Shown in pieces: positions 148 to 52,063 of a stretch of DNA of 64,000 nt. The notes under the pieces were generated by a model, which was not told where the DNA came from, did not search any database, and worked only from the letters and a program-made list of their open reading frames with translations. Each line of letters begins with the position of its first letter. Positions within the stretch are counted from its first letter, which is position 1. Position numbers and translations under genes: made by a program. The stretch is from positions 30,829,929 to 30,893,928 of the forward strand of contig OZ007582.1 in assembly GCA_963931925.1 (NCBI GenBank), in the 5' to 3' direction. Source of the stretch: Onchidella celtica (taxonomy: Eukaryota > Mollusca > Gastropoda > Systellommatophora > Onchidiidae).

Positions 148-195
148 GTGAGTACACAGTATACAAAAAGATCCACGAAGTCGTGCATCTGTTAA

Positions 196-401
196 CCCTT
201 TCAGTATTTAAACAACATTACTGTTAACTCTTTATTGCTGCACCAATTACAGGTTTTGTTCCTCCATTACTGGCTTTTAAATATAGATCAATAGCCTGAT
301 TAAGATTCATTTTCACCATTGAAAATAACCGAAATACGTGAATCTTAACAAAAACTGGACCTGGGGAAAATCTAGCTTTCACGGTGTCAGTATTCAAAGG
401 G
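196..401. mobile_element. TTAA-flanked MITE, family A, copy 1
   Basis: This 206 bp non-coding element starts CCCTTTCAGTATT and ends AGTATTCAAAGGG, which are inverted repeats. It is preceded by TTAA (192-195) and followed by TAAA (402-405). It aligns over its whole length with 6640-6844 and 39071-39278. TTAA duplication and CCC-starting ends suggest piggyBac-type (or Kolobok-type) mobilisation. Confidence 0.7.
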
Positions 402-540
402 TAAAGTTCGATGTTTCAATCCGAGCTAAACAAGGAAATCACCAACACGACATACACAAACAACAGTTTATCCATACAATTGAGCTTAACATTATAATTT
501 AAATACACTATACAGTTAAGATTTCTATGAAAAGTCCCTG

Positions 541-640
541 CGCCCCATTCTGAAGTCCCACACCCAACCAAAATACTGCCACCCCCCACCTTCAGAAACA
601 CTGTCATAGACCGAAATAGACTTGTGCTAAATCCCACGTC
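541..640. repeat. fragment of a hAT-like repeat
   Basis: The segment with CGCCCCATTCTGAAGTCCCA and then AGAAACACTGTCATAGACC resembles the right part of the hAT-like element at 26377-26597, and an inverted stretch near 37680-37735. No ends or target duplication are visible. The stretch 402-540 shows nothing recognisable. Confidence 0.35.
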
Positions 641-1020
641 CCCAAATGAAAACAAAAAATGGACAGCCACTCCCATCCTTCCAATTTAAATCCCCCCCCC
701 CCACCCCCTCCCATCTTATCAACATCAAGTGTTAAGATCCATTTCTAAGAAAGAAGGCTTGAGCCGCGCTACTTGGTCAGCTCTCGACCTCCTACCCTAC
801 CCCTTTCCCCTGCCAATCTGTCTATTCACAGCTCTCGACGACCCTCATCATGTTCGTGTAACGTGCTCACACACTCTCTACTGGATGTGATAGGGGGTCA
901 TCCATAAAGTCTGTATCCTCCATTTTGGCGATTTTTGACCACCCCTATGTAGGCTTTTCACACGCTTCGTTTCAGCTTTTCTGCTCCCACCTCCTCCCCC
1001 TTTGTATGAGTGTGTGTCGA

Positions 1021-1180
1021 AAGGGGGGGGGAGAGGGGAGAGAGAGGGAGGGAGACAGAGAGGAGGAGAAAGAGAGGGGGGGGGGAGAACGAGAGGAAAA
1101 GAGGGGGAGAGAGTAAGGGAGAGCGAGAGAGATGGGGAGTGGGAGAGATAGAGAGAAAGAGAGAGAGAGAAAAGAGAGAA

Positions 1181-1213
<33 letters not shown>

Positions 1214-1312
1214 AAAGAGAGAAAGAGAGAGAGAGAGAAAGAGTGAAAGAGAGAGAGAGAGAGAAAGAGAGAAAGAAAGAGCGATGGAGAGAGAGAGAGA
1301 GAGAACGGCCAT
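1021..1312. repeat. long purine tract (GA/GGA-rich)
   Basis: About 290 bp are almost pure purine on the plus strand, dominated by AGAG with G runs and occasional AAAG. Open frames on both strands (Arg/Glu-rich or Ser/Leu-rich) are artefacts of this composition. The flanking 641-1020 holds C runs but no gene. Confidence 0.9.
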
Positions 1313-2645
1313 AAGAATGGTGAATGTCCATAAAAAGGCTTTAATATTCTAATCCTTTAAGTGGCACCTTGCATGGACTCAGTTTGGCCGATTCTTCAGA
1401 AACACAAAATTGCTTTCTTTAACCGGGACATTAGAATGCTGAATGTCCATGACAAGGCCCTGATATGCTGAAACTAAGTGACCCTTTGTACGGACTATGT
1501 GGCTGTTTCATTTGAGAAATGTGTTTGATTTCTACATAAACCAACGACTGACTTTTTAATTCTTGTTGCTGTTGTTTTTTTAATTCGTTGTCATTAGTCA
1601 AAAAAACCTACGTATGCTCCACAGAACTCCCTCCCCGTCTTGCTCCAAAAATTCTTTTCATGCCCTGGGTGAGGTGACCCTCGCCCCCACCCCATCCATT
1701 CCTTTCCGTACGTACATATTTTACGGAAGGTCCCAGACCTCATAGATCGGCAGATTTCCTCCCTGACCCTGTTAGTGTTAGATTGGCTGGGGTTCTTTCC
1801 CGTCGTGACATCGAGTGTCTACCGTAAGAACTGATTTCTATGCATTGATATCTCTAAACTCAACTTGCAAAAACCACCGCTATCATCATCATCATCAATA
1901 CCACTGTCACGAGTGGAGTGAGCGATAGTTAATAATTACGGGAGGAAAGGAGGAGAGTAGAATTAACGCACGTAGACAGGTAGGGAAAAGCGTGCCTGTT
2001 ATGAGTGGTGGGGGGTCTGAAGGAGGCGAGGGCGCTGTATTACTATCACTGCAAGTTAGAACGTCCTAAAGAGCGGACGCAAGAGAAAGCCCAGTGGGCG
2101 AACATAAGGGGAGCAGTCGGAAGACTAGTGAGAGAGTTTTTTCCAGTGATGACTGGTAGGTGAAACGATGATTGATAATTATGATTGATGTATTATATTC
2201 GTCTTATTACCATGATGTAAATAAGTATATGTGAGGAATGTGGAAGGCCTTGATATTGGATATAGCAATGTGCGCCATGAGCGATAGATGAAAGTTGAGT
2301 TCATGGATTTGTAGCACGAGTGAGTATTGTGTACTACAATGGAGGTGTGTTACCGTAAGATGTTTGGTGAGTGAAATGTGAACTATTGTGTGTACGCTTC
2401 ATGGGTTGTAAGGAGAGGTGGAGTGAATAGAAGTGGTATGGTGTTATACCAATGTAATGTTATTCTTGTAGGTGTCGGGGAGGGGCCAAAGAGCCACCTC
2501 GGTGAGCACAGGGGATAGGCCAGCATAGGGCCGGAGGCCACACATAGGCCAAGAGGGAGGCTGTCGGTGCAGGAGTGTAGAGGCACATAAAGCCGTGGCA
2601 GTCAGGCCACGGACAGGGACGTAGATATGAGCGTGAATGTGCTAA
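1313..2645. other. no gene recognised
   Basis: Unique-looking sequence with a short ATC run near 1880. No open frame with coding character, RNA gene or clear element boundary was found on either strand. Confidence 0.5.
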
Positions 2646-2830
2646 TTGAAATGATAATGTACTATTGCCATGTTAATGGGCTATTGAAATGATAATGTAC
2701 TATTGCCATGTTGAGGGGCTATTGAAATGATAATGTACTATTGCCATGTTGATGGGCTATTGAAATGATAATGTGTTATTGCCCTGCTGAGGTGCTAGTG
2801 GAATGCTAAGGTGTTATGGCAATAGGAAGG
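2646..2830. repeat. 38 bp minisatellite, about 4-5 units
   Basis: Head-to-tail copies of a 38 bp unit (core GAAATGATAATGTACTATTG) start near 2646, 2684, 2722 and 2760. The first three are almost identical and the fourth is degraded. Sequence decays gradually towards 2870. Confidence 0.85.
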
Positions 2831-2870
2831 TGATATTGAGAGACTGCGGTGCCAGTGAATTATTAATGTG

Positions 2871-3444
2871 CTATTAAGACCCTGAGGGGAGAGGCTGAGG
2901 CCGAAGTGTCTTTAGGAAGTAACTACCGGGTTGTGGATCCGAGGAAGAGTGCATGTGGGAATAAGGCCGTTGTACGGCAGTTAAATTCAATAATATAATG
3001 TATGTAATTGCGCTATTATCTGTATAATTATGTTTAATAAATGTGTGAGTCTGATGGGTTGTTCTGTTAAGTGTTAAACTTGTTCGTTCGTGATTGTTGT
3101 CTTGTTATAATAATTATTACATCTCCCAGTCTGGGATTTGTGACAACCACCACCACCACCACCAACACCAACACCAGTAGCAACAGCAACCGCTCGATGA
3201 CCCTGGCGGTCCAAACTACGGGCTGCCACTTGTCCGGACTATTGATTGGCCATCAAGTTATCTAGGCCAGCATCATCATAAGGAGTGTTTCCTATGCTAT
3301 AATTGTCAAGTCTCACACTCTTTGATCTTCCTTGAACATTACTTTTATCCCTTCAGTGGAGAACAAGGCAGGCTTGAACACTACAATGTGATATAGCAAT
3401 CAGCTAAATAAATGCTGTTTTTGAAATGGGACCATCAAATACTG
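2871..3444. other. no gene recognised; short CAC run
   Basis: The stretch holds a short (CAC)n/(AAC)n run at about 3149-3185 and an AATAAA hexamer near 3037, but no supported gene. Confidence 0.4.
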
Positions 3445-3731
3445 TGTTTAGGTCTTTATTTTAGGAGGATCGCTGCCCTTGGCATTTACTCACGTGTTCT
3501 TGTTTCTGTGTGTTTTTTGTGGTAGGGATTAGTTTGTTAGAATTTTGCCCGGGCAGCGGCCTTGTTCGGCCTGCCCTTCTCGACTTTCAGCTGCCAACGT
3601 ATTTTTAACGCGCTCAACGTGCAAACTCCGAGTTTTTCGTCCTTATCCGAGCAGACTAGGTGCTCGATCCTACCTACCACAGGATCAGGGACAGGAAAAT
3701 ATGAGAAAAATCCCAAAATTCCAACATAAAT
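3445..3731 (-). mobile_element. tRNA-derived SINE, 5'-truncated, tail type A
   Basis: Read on the minus strand this matches the body of the SINEs at 20688 and 23523: the shared segment about bracketed TAGTCTGCTCGGATAAGGAC, the GGCCGCTGCCCGGGCAAAAT block, and a tail ending in TAAAATAAAGACCTAA. The tRNA-like head is missing, as expected for 5' truncation. The 100-residue minus-strand frame inside it is a shadow of the SINE. Confidence 0.8.
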
Positions 3732-3949
3732 AGTCAATGTGTGCAAAAGTCTTACTTTGTGAAAGCAAAAATTTGTTCTCCAGTGATAAAAGTATGTGCG
3801 CACCAAATCGTCGGCGGTGTAATTCTGTAACCGTCTCAATGCATTTCACAAAAATTTACAAGAGAAAAAAAAACGACAACTCCTTCATGGACGGAATTGG
3901 GACATTTTTTAAACACACTCACGAAATCATATCTCCAAAACGATGACAG

Positions 3950-4170
3950 ACATTTTTGTTAGGGCTTCTAGCACACGTTGTAGATTCATTTTGGAACAAG
4001 AAAGATTGGTCCACAAAAAGGGGAATTAGAGAATTACACCGAGGAAATGCTTGTCTGAATGTAAACTTGAAGTAACAAGGCAAATTAATTTGACACAGCA
4101 CATTTCTCATGACTACAAAAACTCTATTGGCATGTTTCAATTTATGCAACACACAAATTGACAACATTCT
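3950..4170. repeat. dispersed repeat shared with 62675-62775
   Basis: About 75 bp around AGATTGGTCCACAAAAAG, followed by a GAGAATTA-ACCGA block, recurs near 62690-62760 inside an NKTR-like intron. Element ends are not visible. Confidence 0.5.
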
Positions 4171-4414
4171 GCGAAGAAACACATTTAGTTAGATATTGTT
4201 CTTTACTTGGAAAACTACTTAAGAGATTATTTTCAATAATGTTTTATTTTCAATCCTATTATAATGAAGCTAAAGGGTGAACATGTAAGCATTCAAAACG
4301 TGTGACTGAGTGATCAAAAATTACGAAACTTTGTGCACTGATCCAGTCTTAAACGATAAATTACGTGGACACAGCCATTTTGGACAAAAGTCAGTCTTTA
4401 TTATTATTATTTAA

Positions 4415-4873
4415 CAGGGTTCATACAAAGTCTTGAAAACTAATTTTAAAGGACTTTTTAAGGACTTCCTAAGGACCCATAGTAAACAAATTACGGACCT
4501 GTGTGCCTATGACCAAGAAATATTACAATCATGTTGTAGGCAACGCAGCACTCAAAAATCAGGGACCCGTGTGGAAGAAATATTACAACTAAACAAGTGG
4601 TGTGCAGCACTCATCGAAACGGGATGTTTCTGTATCCAGAGTCCAAACATAGTAAATTCACTTTGAAAAGTTCAGTTATTCCTTGTTCAAAGTACCAATT
4701 ATCCAGTGTGCAATTGGAAAATTTTAATCTCAAACGTTTCAATGGAGACACACAAATTTTAAGGACTTTGACATCATTTTCAGAATTTCAGGACTTTTTG
4801 AGTACATGTACTTATTTTTTCTTTTATGAAAATTAAGGACTTTAAGGACTTTCAAGGACCCGTGTGAACCTTG
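4415..4873. mobile_element. hAT-like non-autonomous TIR element
   Basis: The ends are inverted: the left begins CAGGGTTCATAC and the right ends GTGTGAACCTTG. Subterminal AAGGACTTT motifs repeat in both halves. ATTTAA flanks both sides (4409-4414 and 4874-4879). No transposase is encoded. The CAG start fits hAT, although an exact 8 bp duplication is not seen. Confidence 0.6.
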
Positions 4874-4879
4874 ATTTAA

Positions 4880-5408
4880 CTACAACTTTTTTGAGCCGCA
4901 AAGAAAGAGATGTATTTTCGCCGAGTAGAATCAAAAAGTGTGATCGGAAATTTCGTTCTTTGCCCATGTTTACGCGCTGCTGGCAGAAAATCAACAGTAA
5001 TAACAAACATCTCTGTATTCCCGAAGTCGAGGGGCTAACTAGTAAGCATAATTATTAATTTCTACATTGTTTTTTGGGTAACTAACCTTTTGTGCCTGTA
5101 TTAATTTCCACCATGCCCTGCTTGCCAAACGTATGTGCGCGAGTATATATGCGCTCAGCTTAAGAGAACTGTTCACGACCCACACTTGGAGCGATACCGC
5201 TATACACAATGATACACTAGAGGGAATTACAGGTCAGAGATCTCATTAGTGCTAATTCAGCTGACCATCGACTATGGAGAATACTCACAAGAGGGCACTC
5301 TGTGGGATTTTCTCGTATTGGTACTCGTAGTGAGCACTCGGTTGGTGATGCTCTTTTGCGTATCATGTCTGGTTCTCGGAGTTCTCACCTCTCTCTCTCC
5401 ACTGGTGG
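4880..5408. other. no gene recognised
   Basis: Unique-looking sequence between a hAT-like element and a GA tract. No coding or RNA signal was found. Confidence 0.4.
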
Positions 5409-5537
<129 letters not shown>

Positions 5538-5681
5538 GAGAGAGGAGGTAGACAAAGTATGTTCCGGTACGTGAGAGAGATAGACATTATGCCGAGCTGC
5601 AGGGCTGGGCAAGGTGACAGACACACGGCGGCGGGGAGAGGGGGGGGGGGGGGGGGGAGTTCGAGTTTAAGTTTGGACAAA

Positions 5682-7105: not shown

Positions 7106-7206
7106 AGAAAGATTCCCACATTTTACAGTCTTTACAGATTTCATGCGCACCAGAGCACTCAGCATTCATTCCTGGTAGGGCAATTGCGTATTAATTGAAC
7201 GCGTAT

Positions 7207-7537
7207 CAGAGAGTATAGATGTAGAGAGGGTTCACTTCCGCCAAATCGCGAAACTAGGTCGCTGCGGTAAACAAGAAATTGAAGAATTGAAAGAGACCTT
7301 CTTCGCCAAAGATAGTGCGCATATCTGTTTAGTGTGGTTTGTTCACATTTTTGGGCTGACTGAAACTATTCAGATCCGTTTGTAAGTTCTTACACCCCAT
7401 GGAAATGCACAAACCGGTTTTGTTTACCGCAGCGACCTACTTTCCGCTCCATGCTAACAATGGTTTCGCGGAGCCTTCCCTGTCTCGCAGTGCAAACTGA
7501 CCAATAGTGAACCCTCTCCAAACATCTATACTCTCTG
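7207..7537. mobile_element. TIR element with 7 bp target duplication, copy 1
   Basis: This 331 bp element has ~30 bp TIRs beginning CAGAGAGTATAGATGT and ending with the complement, and a second inner inverted block (GGTCGCTGCGGTAAACAA and complement). CGCGTAT is duplicated exactly at 7200-7206 and 7538-7544. A second copy at 21115-21439 also has a 7 bp duplication. CA...TG ends with a 7 bp duplication fit P-type elements better than hAT (8 bp) or Mutator (9 bp), but the superfamily is an inference. No intact frame is present. Confidence 0.85.
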
Positions 7538-7544
7538 CGCGTAT

Positions 7545-10262: not shown

Positions 10263-12284
10263 TCTCACTTACTAAGTCAACAACAGTAGGAGCTACCTCA
10301 ACAACAACAACAACAACAACAGGTACTGCTGCGATAAAATTATGCAACTTGTCTCGGTCGAAGTAGCTGACATGACCCATACTCAGCACATTATATCACC
10401 ATTGGCAGACAATTACCGGAATCATTTTCTGAGTTACGCCTTTGTTTTGCCACGTTCCACTAACAACACCAACAACAAATGTGGGGTGCAAGACTGTCAT
10501 TTCACACTACAGCCACCACGCTAAGCACAGATCTAACACGATGTACAAGTGTGGCATTGATTGCAAAAGGTGAAAGCACCATACACGTGAGATTCTATCC
10601 GTTTAAAGTAGATCTTGTCATGACACCGAGGGACGACCTGTTCTAAGTGAATTTTCCGGCTGGCAAATGATAGGGGTCAATTGTTAAGTATGTGCGCTCG
10701 TGGTTGTGGTGGTCGGGGGATGGGGGGCGTTCAGTCCTGGCATGAGAAAAGCACAAAAGAGAGAGAGAGTGGGTCTGTGGGACTTCAGTTTCTGGTGAGT
10801 ATTTCTTCACCTTTCGCTAAGACTACAGTAACTCAAAAACTCCCCAAAAATCGATATTCAACTACATTCAAAGCCCCATCGAATGATCTTAGTTACACAC
10901 TCCTAAGCCGAAAAATAATCGAACAGCAAACTTTCAAAAATTCATGGCCACTTGACCATTTTGTGCTAAAATAAAAGAGTTTTTTGCTTCTCCTGAAAAG
11001 TAGCCAAAACCAATTACTACAGTTTTAGGGACCGGTGACGATTTCAAAAGGTGCCAAAAGGAAGGTATGTTGTCGAAATATACGAAAAATCTCTTTTAAG
11101 TTATGTTTCTGATGATTTGTCTCATATATCGAGATAACCCGAGAGCACCCTCAAATCACCGGCGGTATCGACTAACTTCCTGGGCAGGGGTGAAAAGGAA
11201 ATCGACGAAGGAATATGCCCGGGTCGTATTCGCCTGCCACTTTATTGCGCAGACTTAATCGAAATTTGGTCGGAACGGGAGGTGAATGATGGGTAGGATA
11301 AAAATCCACCAATCACAGTCGTCCGCACCATTGAGTGCCACCCGAATTTCCGATGCAGATTTTCATTAACCGCGTGACATTTTTCCCCCGTCACAGTGGC
11401 TGCACCAGAGAGTATCTATCCTCTCTGGCTGCACCTAGGAAAAACGTGTCTCCCAGATTTATAAAGTCAAACGGAAAAAAAGACATTTTGATTTTAAACT
11501 GGGTAAGAACTCAGCATACAAATTATATATACAAAACCGCTGGCCCAATCGTGAATGAAACTGCACTATAAGTGCGAAAGATTTCATCTTACAGAACACG
11601 TGAAGAAAATAATAACCGCTGTCTTATTTGAATTTTGATATATATTCCTGATGTTAGATACATCTTTAGTTACATTAGCCAACCCCACCCACCCCGGCAA
11701 GATAAATCTGGCAAATTTTCCTTGTACCAAGCCCAGCTGCATATCTAGATCTAGGACGCATCAATAACGACATTTGGACTCGATGCAACGGGCAACAAAT
11801 CTTTTCTACACCACAATTCCTTGCAGAATGCATAGATGTGACAAATAAAGGTCAGCAGTGTGTGATGGAGAACGCAATTTCCGGTCCTAATTTTCAATTC
11901 TGTTCGGCGCAAATGCGCCACTATTTTTGCGGCTCAAATAATTTGTAAATAAATAATATAAAAGACTAATTTTTGTCCCAAATGAAGGTCTCCACGTAAT
12001 TCATCGCCAAAAAATGAGACAGTTCACAAAGTTTCATAATGTTTGATCGCGTAGTCACGACATTTTAGGTGATTACATGTTTACCCTCTAGCTCCATTAT
12101 AGTGAGCAGATTAAACATTGGACTCTCTCTCTCTCTTTCTCGTGAACATTTGGCAACAACAACAGCAACAACAACAAAGTTCCGTCTGCAGTTGTGCAAA
12201 TATACCCGTGCAGTTTGATGGCAGGACCAGTGAAACACTCGCGATTATTAACCCTTTATAATGCCCTGAGAGACGAAGGAGAAA
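10263..12284. other. no gene recognised; (ACA)n run
   Basis: An (ACA)n run lies at about 10299-10320 and a small CT run at 12121-12138. Otherwise this is AT-rich unique DNA with no supported coding, RNA or mobile feature. Confidence 0.4.
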
Positions 12285-21062: not shown

Positions 21063-21114
21063 GAAGACTCTATTCCCATGCAAAAGAGCTAGTCTACTTT
21101 TGTAGACACTATAC

Positions 21115-21439
21115 CAGAGAGAATGTATCTATAGAGAGCTTTCACTATTGGTCGATTTGCACTGCGAGACACGGGAGGCGCCGCCAAAGCAATGTTAGCA
21201 TGGAGCGGAAAGTAGGTCGCTGCGGTAAACAATATCCGTTTGTCAATTTCCACGGGGCGTAATAACTTACAAACGGCTCTAAACAGTTTCAAGCAATCAG
21301 CCCAAAAATACTATCAAACCACAGTAAACAGATGCACACTATCTTTGGTGAAGACGGTCTCTTCCAATTCTTGTTGCCGCAGCGACCTAGTTTCGCCATG
21401 TGGCGGAAGTGAGATCTCTCAATAAATACATAGTCTCTG
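21115..21439. mobile_element. TIR element with 7 bp target duplication, copy 2
   Basis: This 325 bp element is inverted relative to the copy at 7207. It starts CAGAGAGAATGTATCT and ends ATACATAGTCTCTG. ACTATAC is duplicated exactly at 21108-21114 and 21440-21446. Inner blocks GGTCGCTGCGGTAAACAA and CCGCAGCGACCTAGTTTC are shared with copy 1. Confidence 0.85.
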
Positions 21440-21446
21440 ACTATAC

Positions 21447-26612: not shown

Positions 26613-27384
26613 CAGGAGTGGCCAAACCTATTCAATGTACGAGCAACGTAAGCTTGAGACGTTCGAGGGCCACAAGATATGAACAAAATTGACACACACG
26701 TTTTTATTTTTACACACATATTTTGTTACAAAATGTTTTGGGCCCTAGGAAAGACCGGCAGAAATGTCTTCCGCTATATGACAACACCTAAACCAAGTGA
26801 TAGCCTAAACTCCCTAGAAAGAAGAAAACAAGTTGTCCTTTTCCGCCTACGCACACAATATAAATATAGCTCTTAAAGCCCACTTAAACAGAATTTACCC
26901 CCAGAAGGAACCCCTGTGCTCACTGTGCCCTCACCGCTATGAAACTGTATCGCACCTCCTTTTTAACTGCCAATCACTTCGTGATTTACGAACTACACTG
27001 CTACCAACCAACCCAGACTTTGAAAACACTCTATTCTGTGGAACAGACCAACTCAACCAAACCTACAAATTTTATGTCATGGCAACAAGACAAAAGGCAC
27101 AAGCTCAGAAGACTGCTGGATCGGAAAAGGACAGTAAGTTACAAAATGTTTATATAAATGTTAGGAAATTCATGTATGCAACCATAATTATTTACTCATG
27201 ACGCAGTTTTTAAACTCTTAATTGGAATTAGTTTCAGTAATCACATATATACCAAATATCTTCCAAATCTTGACTGATAAATTAAATGTGATGCAAAAGA
27301 GCTCTGCCAACATATTTCCACGAGCCGCATATTGAAGGTCAAGGAGCCGCGTGTGGCTCCCCGGCCGCGGTTTTGCCACCCCTG
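26613..27384. mobile_element. hAT element with 8 bp duplication, carrying a LINE fragment
   Basis: Ends CAGGAGTGGCCAAACC and GGTTTTGCCACCCCTG are inverted (14 of 16 match). CTCTACAG is duplicated exactly at 26605-26612 and 27385-27392. It inserted directly at the right end of the preceding hAT-like element. Inside, no transposase is visible; instead there is a LINE-derived piece at about 26730-27180. Confidence 0.85.
26730..27180 (+). pseudogene. non-LTR retrotransposon C-terminal fragment with frameshift
   Basis: One frame reads VFRYMTTPKPSDSLNSLERR then KQVVLFRLRTQ. A second frame continues KAHLNRIYPQKEPLCSLC and ETVSHLLFNC, a CxxC...H...C zinc-like motif common after the RNase H or RT region of LINE proteins. 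The change of frame near 26860-26870 shows a frameshift. It lies wholly within the hAT element. Confidence 0.6.
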
Positions 27385-41318: not shown

Positions 41319-41578
41319 ACGTCACCAAACTGGTGCTTTTAACAACAAAAACAGCTGTTCACGTAAAGACATCCGCCCGTGCAGATGCAGGGCTCTCTTG
41401 TAGAAGAGGGACAGCAGAGAATACATCTGACGTGATACTGCGTGTCGTAAGAGGCGACTAAAGGTGCAAAGGTCCTGGTCTCCCGAGAAGAGCCAGTTGG
41501 CGGTGGGCCAACTACCCACCCTGTAAAAATAAACCAGTTACAGAAACACAAGCAAATACTTCAAATCAGTCTTTTATC

Positions 41579-43342
41579 TTGGGAGAAGGGGGAGCATCTG
41601 CACCTGTAGATTCAATGAAGGACAATGGACAAAGCCGAAAGGACGCCACTGGCCCGACTGCTCCTTCATCAAGCAAGTCACTCCGGATTGCGTCGTGGAA
41701 TGTCCGCTCCATGTATGAAGCAGGAAAGAGTGCCCAGGTTACAATGGAGATGAGGCGATACAGACTGCACATACTTGGAGTTAGCGAGACCCGCTGGATA
41801 CAGTCCGGACTGAAACAACTTAATTCTGGGGAAAAGATTTTGTATTCTGGAAGGGAGGACAAAAAGCATACAGAAGGAGTAGCGATCATCTTGAGCAAGC
41901 ACGCCCAGAGGTCACTGAGGGGATGGGAACCCTATGGAAGGAGAATTATATTGGCATCATTTACTACTAAGAACAAGAACATCAACATGAACATTGTGCA
42001 GATATACGCCCCAACAAATGAAGCAACCGATGAGGACAAGGACGACTTCTACAACCAGCTTCAGGAAATAGTTGACACATTGCCAAGAAAAGATGTGAAC
42101 ATTATAATGGGAGACGCCAATGCCAAGATAGGACAGGACAATACAGGGTATGAGGACATTATGGGGTGCAATGGTTTAGGACAAATGAATGAGAATGGAG
42201 AGCGGTTTGCAAGTTTCTGCGCATTTAACAGCTATGTGATTGGAGGTTCAGTATTCCCACACAAGAGGATCCATAAGGCCACTTGGATTTCACCGGATGG
42301 AGTAACTGAAAATCAGATTGACCACTTTTGCATCACCCGACGATTCAGACGCTCACTAGAGGATGTCATAGTACAGAGAGGAGCAGATGTTGGATCTGAC
42401 CATCACATGCTGCTGGCAAGACTCAAACTCCGCCTCAAGAAACAAGGTACCAGAGCAGGAACAAAGAGGAGAAAGTTTCAAGTGAGCCTTCTGGATGGAG
42501 ACAAGAAGGAAGAGTTCCAGCTGACACTGAGGAATAGATTCAAACCCCTTGTTGACCTCGAAGAGACAGTAGATTTGGAGACTCACTGGGCTAAGGTAAA
42601 AGGAGTATTTACATCGACATGTCAGGATGTTATTGGGGAAAAGAAAGTGGAACACAAGGAATGGATCAGTCAAAAATCACTGGACTTGATAAGGATAAGA
42701 AGAGACCTAAAAGAACGGGTAAATGCAAGTCGTACAAGAAGCTCAAGAGTTGGTAACCAGGAAGAGTACCGAGCATCAGCTAAAGAGGTCAAAAAATCAA
42801 TTAAAAAAGACAAAGAGGAGTTCATAGGAATGTTAGCAGAGAAAGCAGAGAAGGCAGCAACAGGAGGACACATGAGGATCCTCTACCAGACTACAAAGAC
42901 TCTTGCTGGAAAATATGGAAAACCTGAAGTTCCTGTCAAGGATTACAACAGGAAGGCTATTTTTGGAAAGGAAGCTCAGGCAAAAAGATGGATAGAACAT
43001 TTTAACAGCCTCTTGAACAGACCTCCACCAAGCAACCCACCCGACATTCTACCCGCAAGAAATGATTTACCGATCAGTTGCGACCCTCCGACTAAAGCAG
43101 AGATTAATGATGCCATAAAGCAGTTAAATCGAGGCAAGGCAGCTGGACCAGACCAGATCCCACCAGAGGCGCTGAAGGCAGATGCTGCTGGGGCTGCAGA
43201 GGGTCTGCACTCACTATTCTCGAGGATTTGGATCGGAGGCAAGTTTCCAAAGGACTGGAAGGAAGGACACCTCGTGAAGCTCCCAAAAAAAGCTGAGGAT
43301 ATTCAACTCGAACGTGAAGTCAGTCCTGTTGTATGGATGTGA
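41579..43342 (+). CDS. retrotransposon endonuclease plus truncated reverse transcriptase
   Basis: This 587-codon frame starts at ATG 41579. Residues ~34-270 form an apurinic/apyrimidinic-type endonuclease of the exonuclease-endonuclease-phosphatase fold: ASWNVRSMYEAGK (metal-binding Asn), GVSETRW (catalytic Glu), QIYAPTN, IIMGDANAKIG (catalytic Asp), WISPDGVTENQIDHFCI and the SDHHML box. This domain nicks the target DNA for target-primed reverse transcription. A Lys/Arg-rich linker follows. At residues ~505-575 the start of a reverse transcriptase appears (PPTKAEINDAIKQLNRGKAA, GPDQIPPEALKAD, PKDWKEGHLVKLPKK). After ~573 the sequence is out of frame: the fingers and palm, including the expected F/Y-x-D-D motif, are missing. 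The endonuclease looks intact, but the product cannot copy itself. Confidence 0.85.
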   Translation: MGEGGASAPVDSMKDNGQSRKDATGPTAPSSSKSLRIASWNVRSMYEAGKSAQVTMEMRRYRLHILGVSETRWIQSGLKQLNSGEKILYSGREDKKHTEGVAIILSKHAQRSLRGWEPYGRRIILASFTTKNKNINMNIVQIYAPTNEATDEDKDDFYNQLQEIVDTLPRKDVNIIMGDANAKIGQDNTGYEDIMGCNGLGQMNENGERFASFCAFNSYVIGGSVFPHKRIHKATWISPDGVTENQIDHFCITRRFRRSLEDVIVQRGADVGSDHHMLLARLKLRLKKQGTRAGTKRRKFQVSLLDGDKKEEFQLTLRNRFKPLVDLEETVDLETHWAKVKGVFTSTCQDVIGEKKVEHKEWISQKSLDLIRIRRDLKERVNASRTRSSRVGNQEEYRASAKEVKKSIKKDKEEFIGMLAEKAEKAATGGHMRILYQTTKTLAGKYGKPEVPVKDYNRKAIFGKEAQAKRWIEHFNSLLNRPPPSNPPDILPARNDLPISCDPPTKAEINDAIKQLNRGKAAGPDQIPPEALKADAAGAAEGLHSLFSRIWIGGKFPKDWKEGHLVKLPKKAEDIQLEREVSPVVWM

Positions 43343-43739
43343 GACTTGGAATGCGTCCCAGGCCTGCATAAAGAGAATCCAAGTTTTCATCAACAGATGT
43401 TTGAGGAAGCTACTTAAGATCAGATGGACAGACAAGGTCAGCAATGAAATTGTATGGAAAAGAACAAGACAGAACCCAGTCAGAGAGGAAATTGGTAGGA
43501 GGCGATGGAGATGGATCGGCCACACTCTCAGGAGGCCAGGAAACAGCATCACGAAGAAGGTATTGGACTGGAATCCCCAGGGCAAGAGATCAAGAGGAAG
43601 GCCGCGCGGAACGTGGAGAAGAGCCAGAGAAAATGATGTGCAACGAAGCGGAAAGACTTGGAATAATGTAAAGAGGCTGGCCCATGATAGAGAGGGATGG
43701 AAGGTGTTTGTTGGTGGCCTATACCCTGATCCAGGGTGA
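43293..43739 (+). pseudogene. retrotransposon reverse transcriptase C-terminal part, out of frame
   Basis: After the deletion joint a different frame reads RIFNSNVKSVLLYGCETW, then CLRKLLKIRWTDKVSN, RRRWRWIGHTLRRPG, GKRSRGRPRGTWRRA and REGWKVFVGGLYPDPG before a stop at 43737-43739. These are the usual C-terminal motifs of this LINE type. It overlaps the end of the upstream frame by ~50 bp because of the frameshift at the joint. Confidence 0.85.
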
Positions 43740-51100: not shown

Positions 51101-51640
51101 AACCACCGATTTCCCACGCCGCTTCACAAGTTAGGGTGGGGAAACACTGTCCAAAAATCACATTTGCAACCACCACCTTCTCTAAGAGTCTCATCTGTCC
51201 ACACAAAACAAATAAGGTCTGAATTTCAAAGCAAAAGTGGTAAGAAAGATTAAAACACGTTGAAAATGCAATGTCACACGTAATAATTATGAAATGATCA
51301 ACAACCATCCTGAACCTGCAAGCCTCCTGTGAGACTCTATATCTTACACAGAGCAACACAAAAATCACTGACCTAAGCATTGTGAGAGTGACCGGGGTTT
51401 TCAATGTGTAAGTCCAAGTGCTTCAAAATTTACACATTAACTAAAAATGACACAATACAAGCTGTGGCGCCTCTGTTCTGTTAAAACAAAGATTTCAAAC
51501 AGCAAAATATAAAGGCTGTAATTACAGAACCGTAGTCGAATTACAAAGCCCAATTGAGAAAGTAATGAATTGTGTTTACTGTTCAGCTATAGGTAAAATG
51601 TGCATGACGTAACTCAGTGTTTTTGTTTTGTTCTTCCCCC
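51101..51640. other. no gene recognised
   Basis: Unique AT-rich DNA. A stretch near 51541-51600 (ACAAAGCCCAATTGAGAAAG) resembles 25365-25400 weakly. Confidence 0.3.
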
Positions 51641-51644
51641 CGCC

Positions 51645-51660
51645 CAAGATGGCCGGTGGA
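51645..51660 (+). promoter_or_regulatory. YY1-like motif, possible start-site element
   Basis: CAAGATGGCCGG resembles the AAGATGGCGGC motif often found just downstream of animal transcription starts. A second CAAGATGGCGGA lies at about 51989. It is 45 bp upstream of the THAP-like frame. Confidence 0.25.
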
Positions 51661-51703
51661 TCAGCTGATGAGTGTAACTTCAAGATATGTCTAAGCAGTT
51701 AAA

Positions 51704-52063
51704 ATGTGTGCTGGTTGCATTGTAGCTGATTGTTATGGCAGAGGTGGAAAGGATGGATCCACGCTGGCCAGATTCCCTACCATCTTTGTAAACAAGGGAA
51801 AGGAAGTGAAAGAATTGACCGAACGTCTCCCATTGAACATGTTCATACATGTCATTGTTTACTGTAGCAATCTACTTTTAGCTCGCCGCCAGTTGGTTCG
51901 CGACACCTTCTGTGCTCGCAGTGCAAATCAGCTAACGAATCAAAATCAATGCCACAACCACCATGGTGATGCGTGGGTCCGGACACCCAAGATGGCGGAT
52001 ACGTGCATTCTACCTATAGCTTACTTTGTAAAATGCTATGATTTCCTATCACCAGCCGACTAA
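51704..52063 (+). CDS. possible THAP-type zinc-finger start, or P-element-like fragment
   Basis: The frame begins MCAGCIVADCYGRGGKDGST and continues LARFPT. This resembles the start of THAP zinc fingers (C2CH type: paired Cys, a basic/glycine stretch, then F/RFP). The remaining Cys-x-x-His pair and the AVPTIF-type box are not evident, so only the first part would be present; an exon end or decay after ~residue 28 is likely. The C-terminal two thirds of the 119-residue frame overlap a copy of the 7 bp-TSD element and are probably not coding. Confidence is low. Confidence 0.3.
   Translation: MCAGCIVADCYGRGGKDGSTLARFPTIFVNKGKEVKELTERLPLNMFIHVIVYCSNLLLARRQLVRDTFCARSANQLTNQNQCHNHHGDAWVRTPKMADTCILPIAYFVKCYDFLSPAD
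51857..51955. mobile_element. half copy of the 7 bp-TSD TIR element
   Basis: GTTTACTGTAGCAATCTACT and TGCTCGCAGTGCAAATCAGC align with the right half of the element at 7207 (GTTTACCGCAGCGACCTACT, TGTCTCGCAGTGCAAACTGA). The outer TIR is not recognisable here. Confidence 0.5.

Follow-up and report, generated by a model that had tools for sequence, protein, structure and literature searches.

Two copies of a short inverted-repeat element lie in the window

The window, which is the whole 64,000-nt stretch of Onchidella celtica DNA that was analyzed, carries two copies (A and B) of a short element with inverted ends (Table 1). An earlier note on this DNA described two copies in opposite orientation with terminal inverted repeats (TIRs) of ~30 bp, inner inverted blocks, and exact 7-bp duplications, and this description was borne out. 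The duplications CGCGTAT and ACTATAC are exact, and the 19-nt inner block AGGTCGCTGCGGTAAACAA has two inverted occurrences in copy A (7256-7274 and 7420-7438) and a single exact occurrence in copy B (21214-21232). The search for this block permitted up to 3 mismatches, and 100 shuffles gave 0 matches. The A TIRs pair over 30 versus 32 nt with one mismatch and a 2-nt gap, and those of B pair over 32 versus 32 nt with six mismatches. Alignment of A with B gave 273 identities, 46 mismatches, and 18 gap positions (~80% identity; K2P 0.16). The termini of the family are CAGAGAG...CTCTCTG, with a TIR of ~32 bp and the CA...TG ends of the P superfamily.

Table 1. Features of the window and of four P transposase places elsewhere in the assembly
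Feature	Position	Strand	Details
Copy A, non-autonomous element	7207-7537	+	331 bp; no long open frame
A left target duplication	7200-7206	.	7 bp, CGCGTAT
A right target duplication	7538-7544	.	7 bp, CGCGTAT
A left TIR	7207-7236	+	
A right TIR	7506-7537	-	
A left inner inverted block	7250-7274	+	44-68 bp from left end; putative transposase-binding site
A right inner inverted block	7420-7444	-	94-118 bp from right end
Copy B	21115-21439	-	325 bp; more diverged subfamily; orientation opposite to A
B left target duplication	21108-21114	.	7 bp, ACTATAC
B right target duplication	21440-21446	.	7 bp, ACTATAC
B TIR, left in window	21115-21146	-	
B TIR, right in window	21408-21439	-	
Putative excision footprint	11399-11434	.	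GCTGCAC + 22 nt + GCTGCAC
Diverged match to A/B profile positions 195-302	51829-51933	+	nhmmer E 8.5e-10
Family's own ends			CAGAGAGTATAGATG
End-pair pattern for short abutted-end remnants			CAGAGAGTAT...ATACTCTCTG
L071			4220 bp; ends CAAAGAG (9/12); 7-bp CTACCAT; 881-aa frame with THAP
L072			674-aa frame with THAP
L073	contig C4		2342 bp; ends CAGAGACCTTATA (CAGAGA), paired 12/12; 7-bp ATAGTAC; 616-aa frame
L074			5157 bp; ends CATGGAG (10/12); 8-bp GGTGGAAG; 916-aa frame with THAP

The window was scanned for inverted-ended elements of 100-6000 bp, which gave 5, 4, 2, 2, 0, and 1 candidates at duplication lengths of 5, 6, 7, 8, 9, and 10, respectively. Both candidates at length 7 were exactly A and B, and three shuffles each gave 0 candidates at lengths 7 and 8. 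Among 366 CAGAG...CTCTG pairs lying up to 6 kb apart in the window, exact 7-bp flanks were found for three: A, B, and a 22-nt stretch at 11406-11427, which the earlier note does not mention. Flank repeats end 60 bp before B and begin 25 bp beyond the right duplication of A, and no empty site for either copy was found within the window.

In their three forward frames, neither A nor B matched any Pfam family up to E 10, THAP among them. A decayed THAP coding piece in the interior of the element (frames at ~7270-7340) was considered and rejected, as Pfam searches at limits of E 1 and E 10 both came back without a match. An ORF at 51704-51844 that appeared THAP-like by eye was also rejected; it had no Pfam match, and a PDB search returned only four DotN/IcmJ chains (best E 0.62). 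An exact search of viral contigs for the inner block gave 0 matches, and none of four literal sequence strings occurred in the library of papers searched.

Other elements were noted in the window. The diverged profile match at 51829-51933 sits between a 16-nt inverted pair, 51585-51600 and 52006-52021 (AGCTATAGGTAAAATG, 94%). This ~437-bp stretch (51585-52021) holds a block 73% alike to A positions 214-290; its bounds differ from those of the family while the inner block is alike, and therefore two different-ended elements seem to share an inner module. A 772-bp element at 26613-27384, whose CAGG ends make it look like hAT, has an exact 8-bp duplication (CTCTACAG). Frames at 41462-43739 match the endonuclease family PF03372 and PF20049 and probably belong to a LINE-like retroelement.

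Genome-wide copies have 7-bp target duplications

The assembly to which the window belongs (1.14 Gb, 43 contigs) was searched with both copies, and for each the best 40 first-look candidates were scored, out of 4681 for A and 4448 for B. Because the scored places are the best candidates, old copies are under-represented. We read 70 of the 80 scored places, namely, the 40 from A and 30 of the 40 from B. Six HSP rows that lacked both ends were excluded, which left 67 copies complete at the two ends. Allowing the ends to slide gave false duplication values of 8 and 9 bp, and the tabulation therefore uses ends fixed by the terminal sequence.

Flanking k-mer identity in these 67 best-scoring copies reached 0.89 at k=7, whereas at k=4-6 and k=8-12 it was 0.25-0.29. 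Tabulation of duplication length over at least 50 copies had been proposed in the earlier note as a check, and it upheld the 7-bp value: the duplication was exact in 45 of the 67 copies and had one mismatch in 10, two in 6, three in 1 (L058), and five in 5. Three of the five-mismatch copies (L012, L031, and L033) had ends misplaced by the script and have exact 7-bp duplications if the ends slide by 3-4 nt. L045 is without a duplication. L037 has an exact 8-bp duplication, the single such case among the 67. The earlier note had named copies with 8- or 9-bp duplications as evidence against its reading; this one copy does count against it, but Galileo, a P-superfamily element of Drosophila, has the same mixture of 7 and 8. 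The duplications of the family fall within the 7-8 bp of the P superfamily. The family consensus is 333 bp long. The first 30 loci hold 31 copies, of which 30 diverge from the consensus by 0.9-3.6% and one by 14.8%.

Some copies are nested or composite. At L006 (1501-2163), two family copies stand in tandem with the middle 7-bp TTGAAAC common to both, as if one copy had landed within the other's duplication. Five copies (L005, L012, L014, L053, and L067) occupy the same place of another repeat (GTTCAAC; GTTCAAG in L067), three of them at 98-99% identity to the consensus and two at 90-91%. This shared site may reflect either repeated insertion or one old composite.

Insertion sites have a weak palindromic preference

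Insertion sites were counted as the 45 exact duplications minus those of L014, L053, and L067, whose flanks resemble those of L005, leaving 42. They give the consensus TTTAAGTATAACTAAGA, in which the second position of the duplication is T in 36/42 sites and the sixth is A in 31/42. The palindromic score of the 42 sites averaged 2.98 of 8, whereas 2000 shuffles averaged 2.15 and never exceeded 2.76. The preference is loose, with GTNNNAC exact in 7/42 sites and.TNNNA. in 26/42. The sites thus have a weak palindromic preference, AGTNNNACT-like, that is close to the printed Galileo target. Across six species, the duplication reported for Galileo reads GTANTAC, and D. willistoni is given a 15-bp palindrome; targets of P and 1360 are described as tending to ANAGT/ACTNT (PMC4168063).

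A 22-bp remnant is a candidate excision footprint

The stretch at 11406-11427 consists of two abutting element ends flanked by exact 7-bp repeats. The window has two end pairs that are up to 60 nt apart, one of them with exact 7-bp flanks; none of the 914 such pairs from 300 simulated windows had exact 7-bp flanks. A looser scan of 292,812 bases (the window plus loci, some overlapping) tested 39 pairs at length 7 and recovered no remnant besides this one, and the same scan found none at lengths 5, 6, 8, and 9. Cleavage by P transposase takes place 17 bp within the inverted repeats and produces long overhangs (PMC7776569). The retained ends of the remnant are at most about 14 nt, which fits inside such a 17-nt overhang, and the two ends may overlap by 2 nt where they meet.

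The remnant (11399-11434) looks like a P-type excision footprint, with ends short enough to come from joined overhangs. Alternatively, aborted gap repair could have produced it as an extreme internal deletion, or it could have arisen by chance, given that it is a single case and that internal deletion can befall any cut-and-paste element. The short retained ends, which fit the overhang, and the simulated pairs argue against this origin, which we regard as possible but rather unlikely.

The genome encodes many P transposases

The PF21787 profile (P transposase RNase H N-terminal) picked out 1146 first-look candidates in the assembly. All 150 that were scored passed the Pfam cut-off, and many of the matches lie within long open frames. 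The same profile had no match in 14 control genomes. We read four of the 150 scored places (L071-L074; Table 1).

L073 combines CAGAGA ends and a 7-bp duplication with a frame that matches PF21787, PF21788, and PF21789; no THAP match was found in this frame. When L073 was shuffled 100 times, no end candidate paired at 12/12. The L071 boundary is weaker because 100 shuffles gave 4 candidates at 9/12 or better. In L074, an 8-bp P element is inserted within a copy of the 7-bp element family (191-5670). Family positions 31-38 are present on both sides, and 8 bp is therefore confirmed; a second, weaker L074 candidate at length 7 was set aside since the interrupted copy fixes the 8-bp boundary. No element boundary was found for L072 in the scan. 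An exact 12-nt search with the inner block found it absent from L071-L073 and present at one place in L074, inside the interrupted family copy. Among the four places read of the 150 scored, we saw no element that joins the CAGAGAGTATAGATG ends to a transposase.

The L071 and L073 transposases are 41% identical to each other, each is 25-27% identical to those of L072 and L074, with L073 at 25-26%, and L072 and L074 are 34-35% identical. These pairwise identities, set beside three boundaries of which one is weak, suggest that duplication length may follow transposase lineage. Two P-transposase lineages might accordingly be distinguished, a 7-bp lineage (L071, L073, and the short family) and an 8-bp lineage (L074 and possibly L072), with length as a clade property. 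We hold this division tentatively, at somewhat less than even odds.

The family probably belongs to the P superfamily

We assign the family of A and B to the P superfamily as a non-autonomous (MITE) family, with a probability of roughly 0.88. The earlier note had proposed a P-like non-autonomous family, and that proposal gains support from the 7-bp duplications, the Galileo-like target, the candidate footprint, and L073. Several observations weigh against it: none of the four transposase places read of the 150 joins the family's own ends to a transposase, the exact inner block is missing from L071-L073, neither the L073 frame nor the forward frames of A and B match THAP, the footprint candidate is a single case, GTNNNAC is exact in 7 of 42 sites, and the right inner block lies deeper than the P sites. 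Its view that 7 bp is unusual does not hold within the P superfamily, as Galileo makes 7-bp duplications and some of 8 (PMC4168063). P-superfamily TIRs are given as about 13-31 bp in the sources consulted.

Other superfamilies were weighed against this assignment. The ends of hAT elements often start CAGNG, and those of the family start CAGAG, so that a hAT MITE whose transposase makes 7-bp rather than 8-bp duplications has to be considered. The earlier note set hAT aside as giving 8 bp, but values of 5-8 bp are given for hAT (PMC4482050); length alone therefore did not exclude hAT, and a length of 7 does not discriminate it from P. What speaks for P over hAT is the Galileo-like palindromic target preference, the end-retaining remnant at 11406-11427, and the presence in the same genome of L073, in which CAGAGA ends and a 7-bp duplication go with a P transposase; moreover, the hAT-looking element of the window has 8 bp. 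Together, these observations make a hAT origin improbable.

Duplications of 6-7 bp would also fit a Dada MITE, and many Dada families target tRNA or snRNA genes (PMC8869645). No Rfam family reached the gathering score in the window, where a gene split by an insertion could escape detection, and the 42 sites have a short palindrome in common rather than the tRNA or snRNA gene insertion of Dada, which leaves this origin scarcely credible. A superfamily not yet described, sharing its duplication length with Galileo by chance, might be favored by the lack of an exact autonomous partner among the four of 150 transposase places read. Length, target preference, remnant, and the CAGAGA-ended P element nevertheless all indicate P, and we consider a novel superfamily highly improbable.

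Within the P superfamily, the family differs from its known relatives (both P-derived MITEs, with 8 bp in Anopheles, and 7-bp P relatives such as Galileo, are already known). It resembles Galileo in 7-bp duplications with an occasional 8, a palindromic target, and transposase-less copies; in contrast, Galileo has long, internally repetitive TIRs, against ~32 bp in this family. The likeness drawn here is one of features. P-derived MITEs of Anopheles gambiae are comparable, with P-element TIRs of 27-31 bp, but have 8-bp duplications (PMC1562414). Zebrafish Pdre2 shares CA...TG ends and subterminal inverted repeats and has a P transposase, but its TIR is 13 bp (CATACCTGTCAAC) and its duplications are 8 bp (PMC10983969). 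L073 is like the MITE in its ends and duplication length, whereas its ends diverge past about 6 nt and its interior lacks significant blastn similarity (best E 0.83).

A P-type transposase would move the family in trans

A and B are two of many copies, most likely mobilized by P-type transposases of larger elements. Under the proposed mechanism, the MITE has no gene of its own, and a transposase encoded by a larger element would act on it in trans; we infer that this enzyme is of P type. Such a transposase would have an RNase-H-like core, a GTP-binding insertion, and usually a THAP domain. It would bind near both ends, probably at the inner inverted block, and presumably make widely staggered cuts within the ~30-bp inverted repeats. 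Insertion into AGTNNNACT-like targets with an offset of 7 bp, followed by repair, would yield the 7-bp duplication. On excision, the overhangs could be joined so that the duplication stays behind together with a few nucleotides from each end, as proposed for 11399-11434.

The inner block is probably a transposase-binding site by analogy with P, in which THAP sites lie at 53-63 and 41-51, and with Galileo, in which they lie at about 70 (PMC3688188). The left block of A falls at a comparable distance from its end; the right block is further in than the P sites.

Implications

The P literature consulted for comparison concerns flies, mosquitoes, and fish, and in the portion available of a curated bivalve transposon library, the counts name no P elements (PMC10294476). 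The large animal genome studied here contains numerous genes for P transposases alongside a P-type MITE whose duplications are 7 bp. P-type elements of 7 and 8 bp seem to coexist in this one animal genome. If the two lineages are real, they would offer natural pairs for studying what makes a P transposase use an offset of 7 or 8 bp. The 22-bp remnant suggests, in addition, that excision might be readable directly from genomes.
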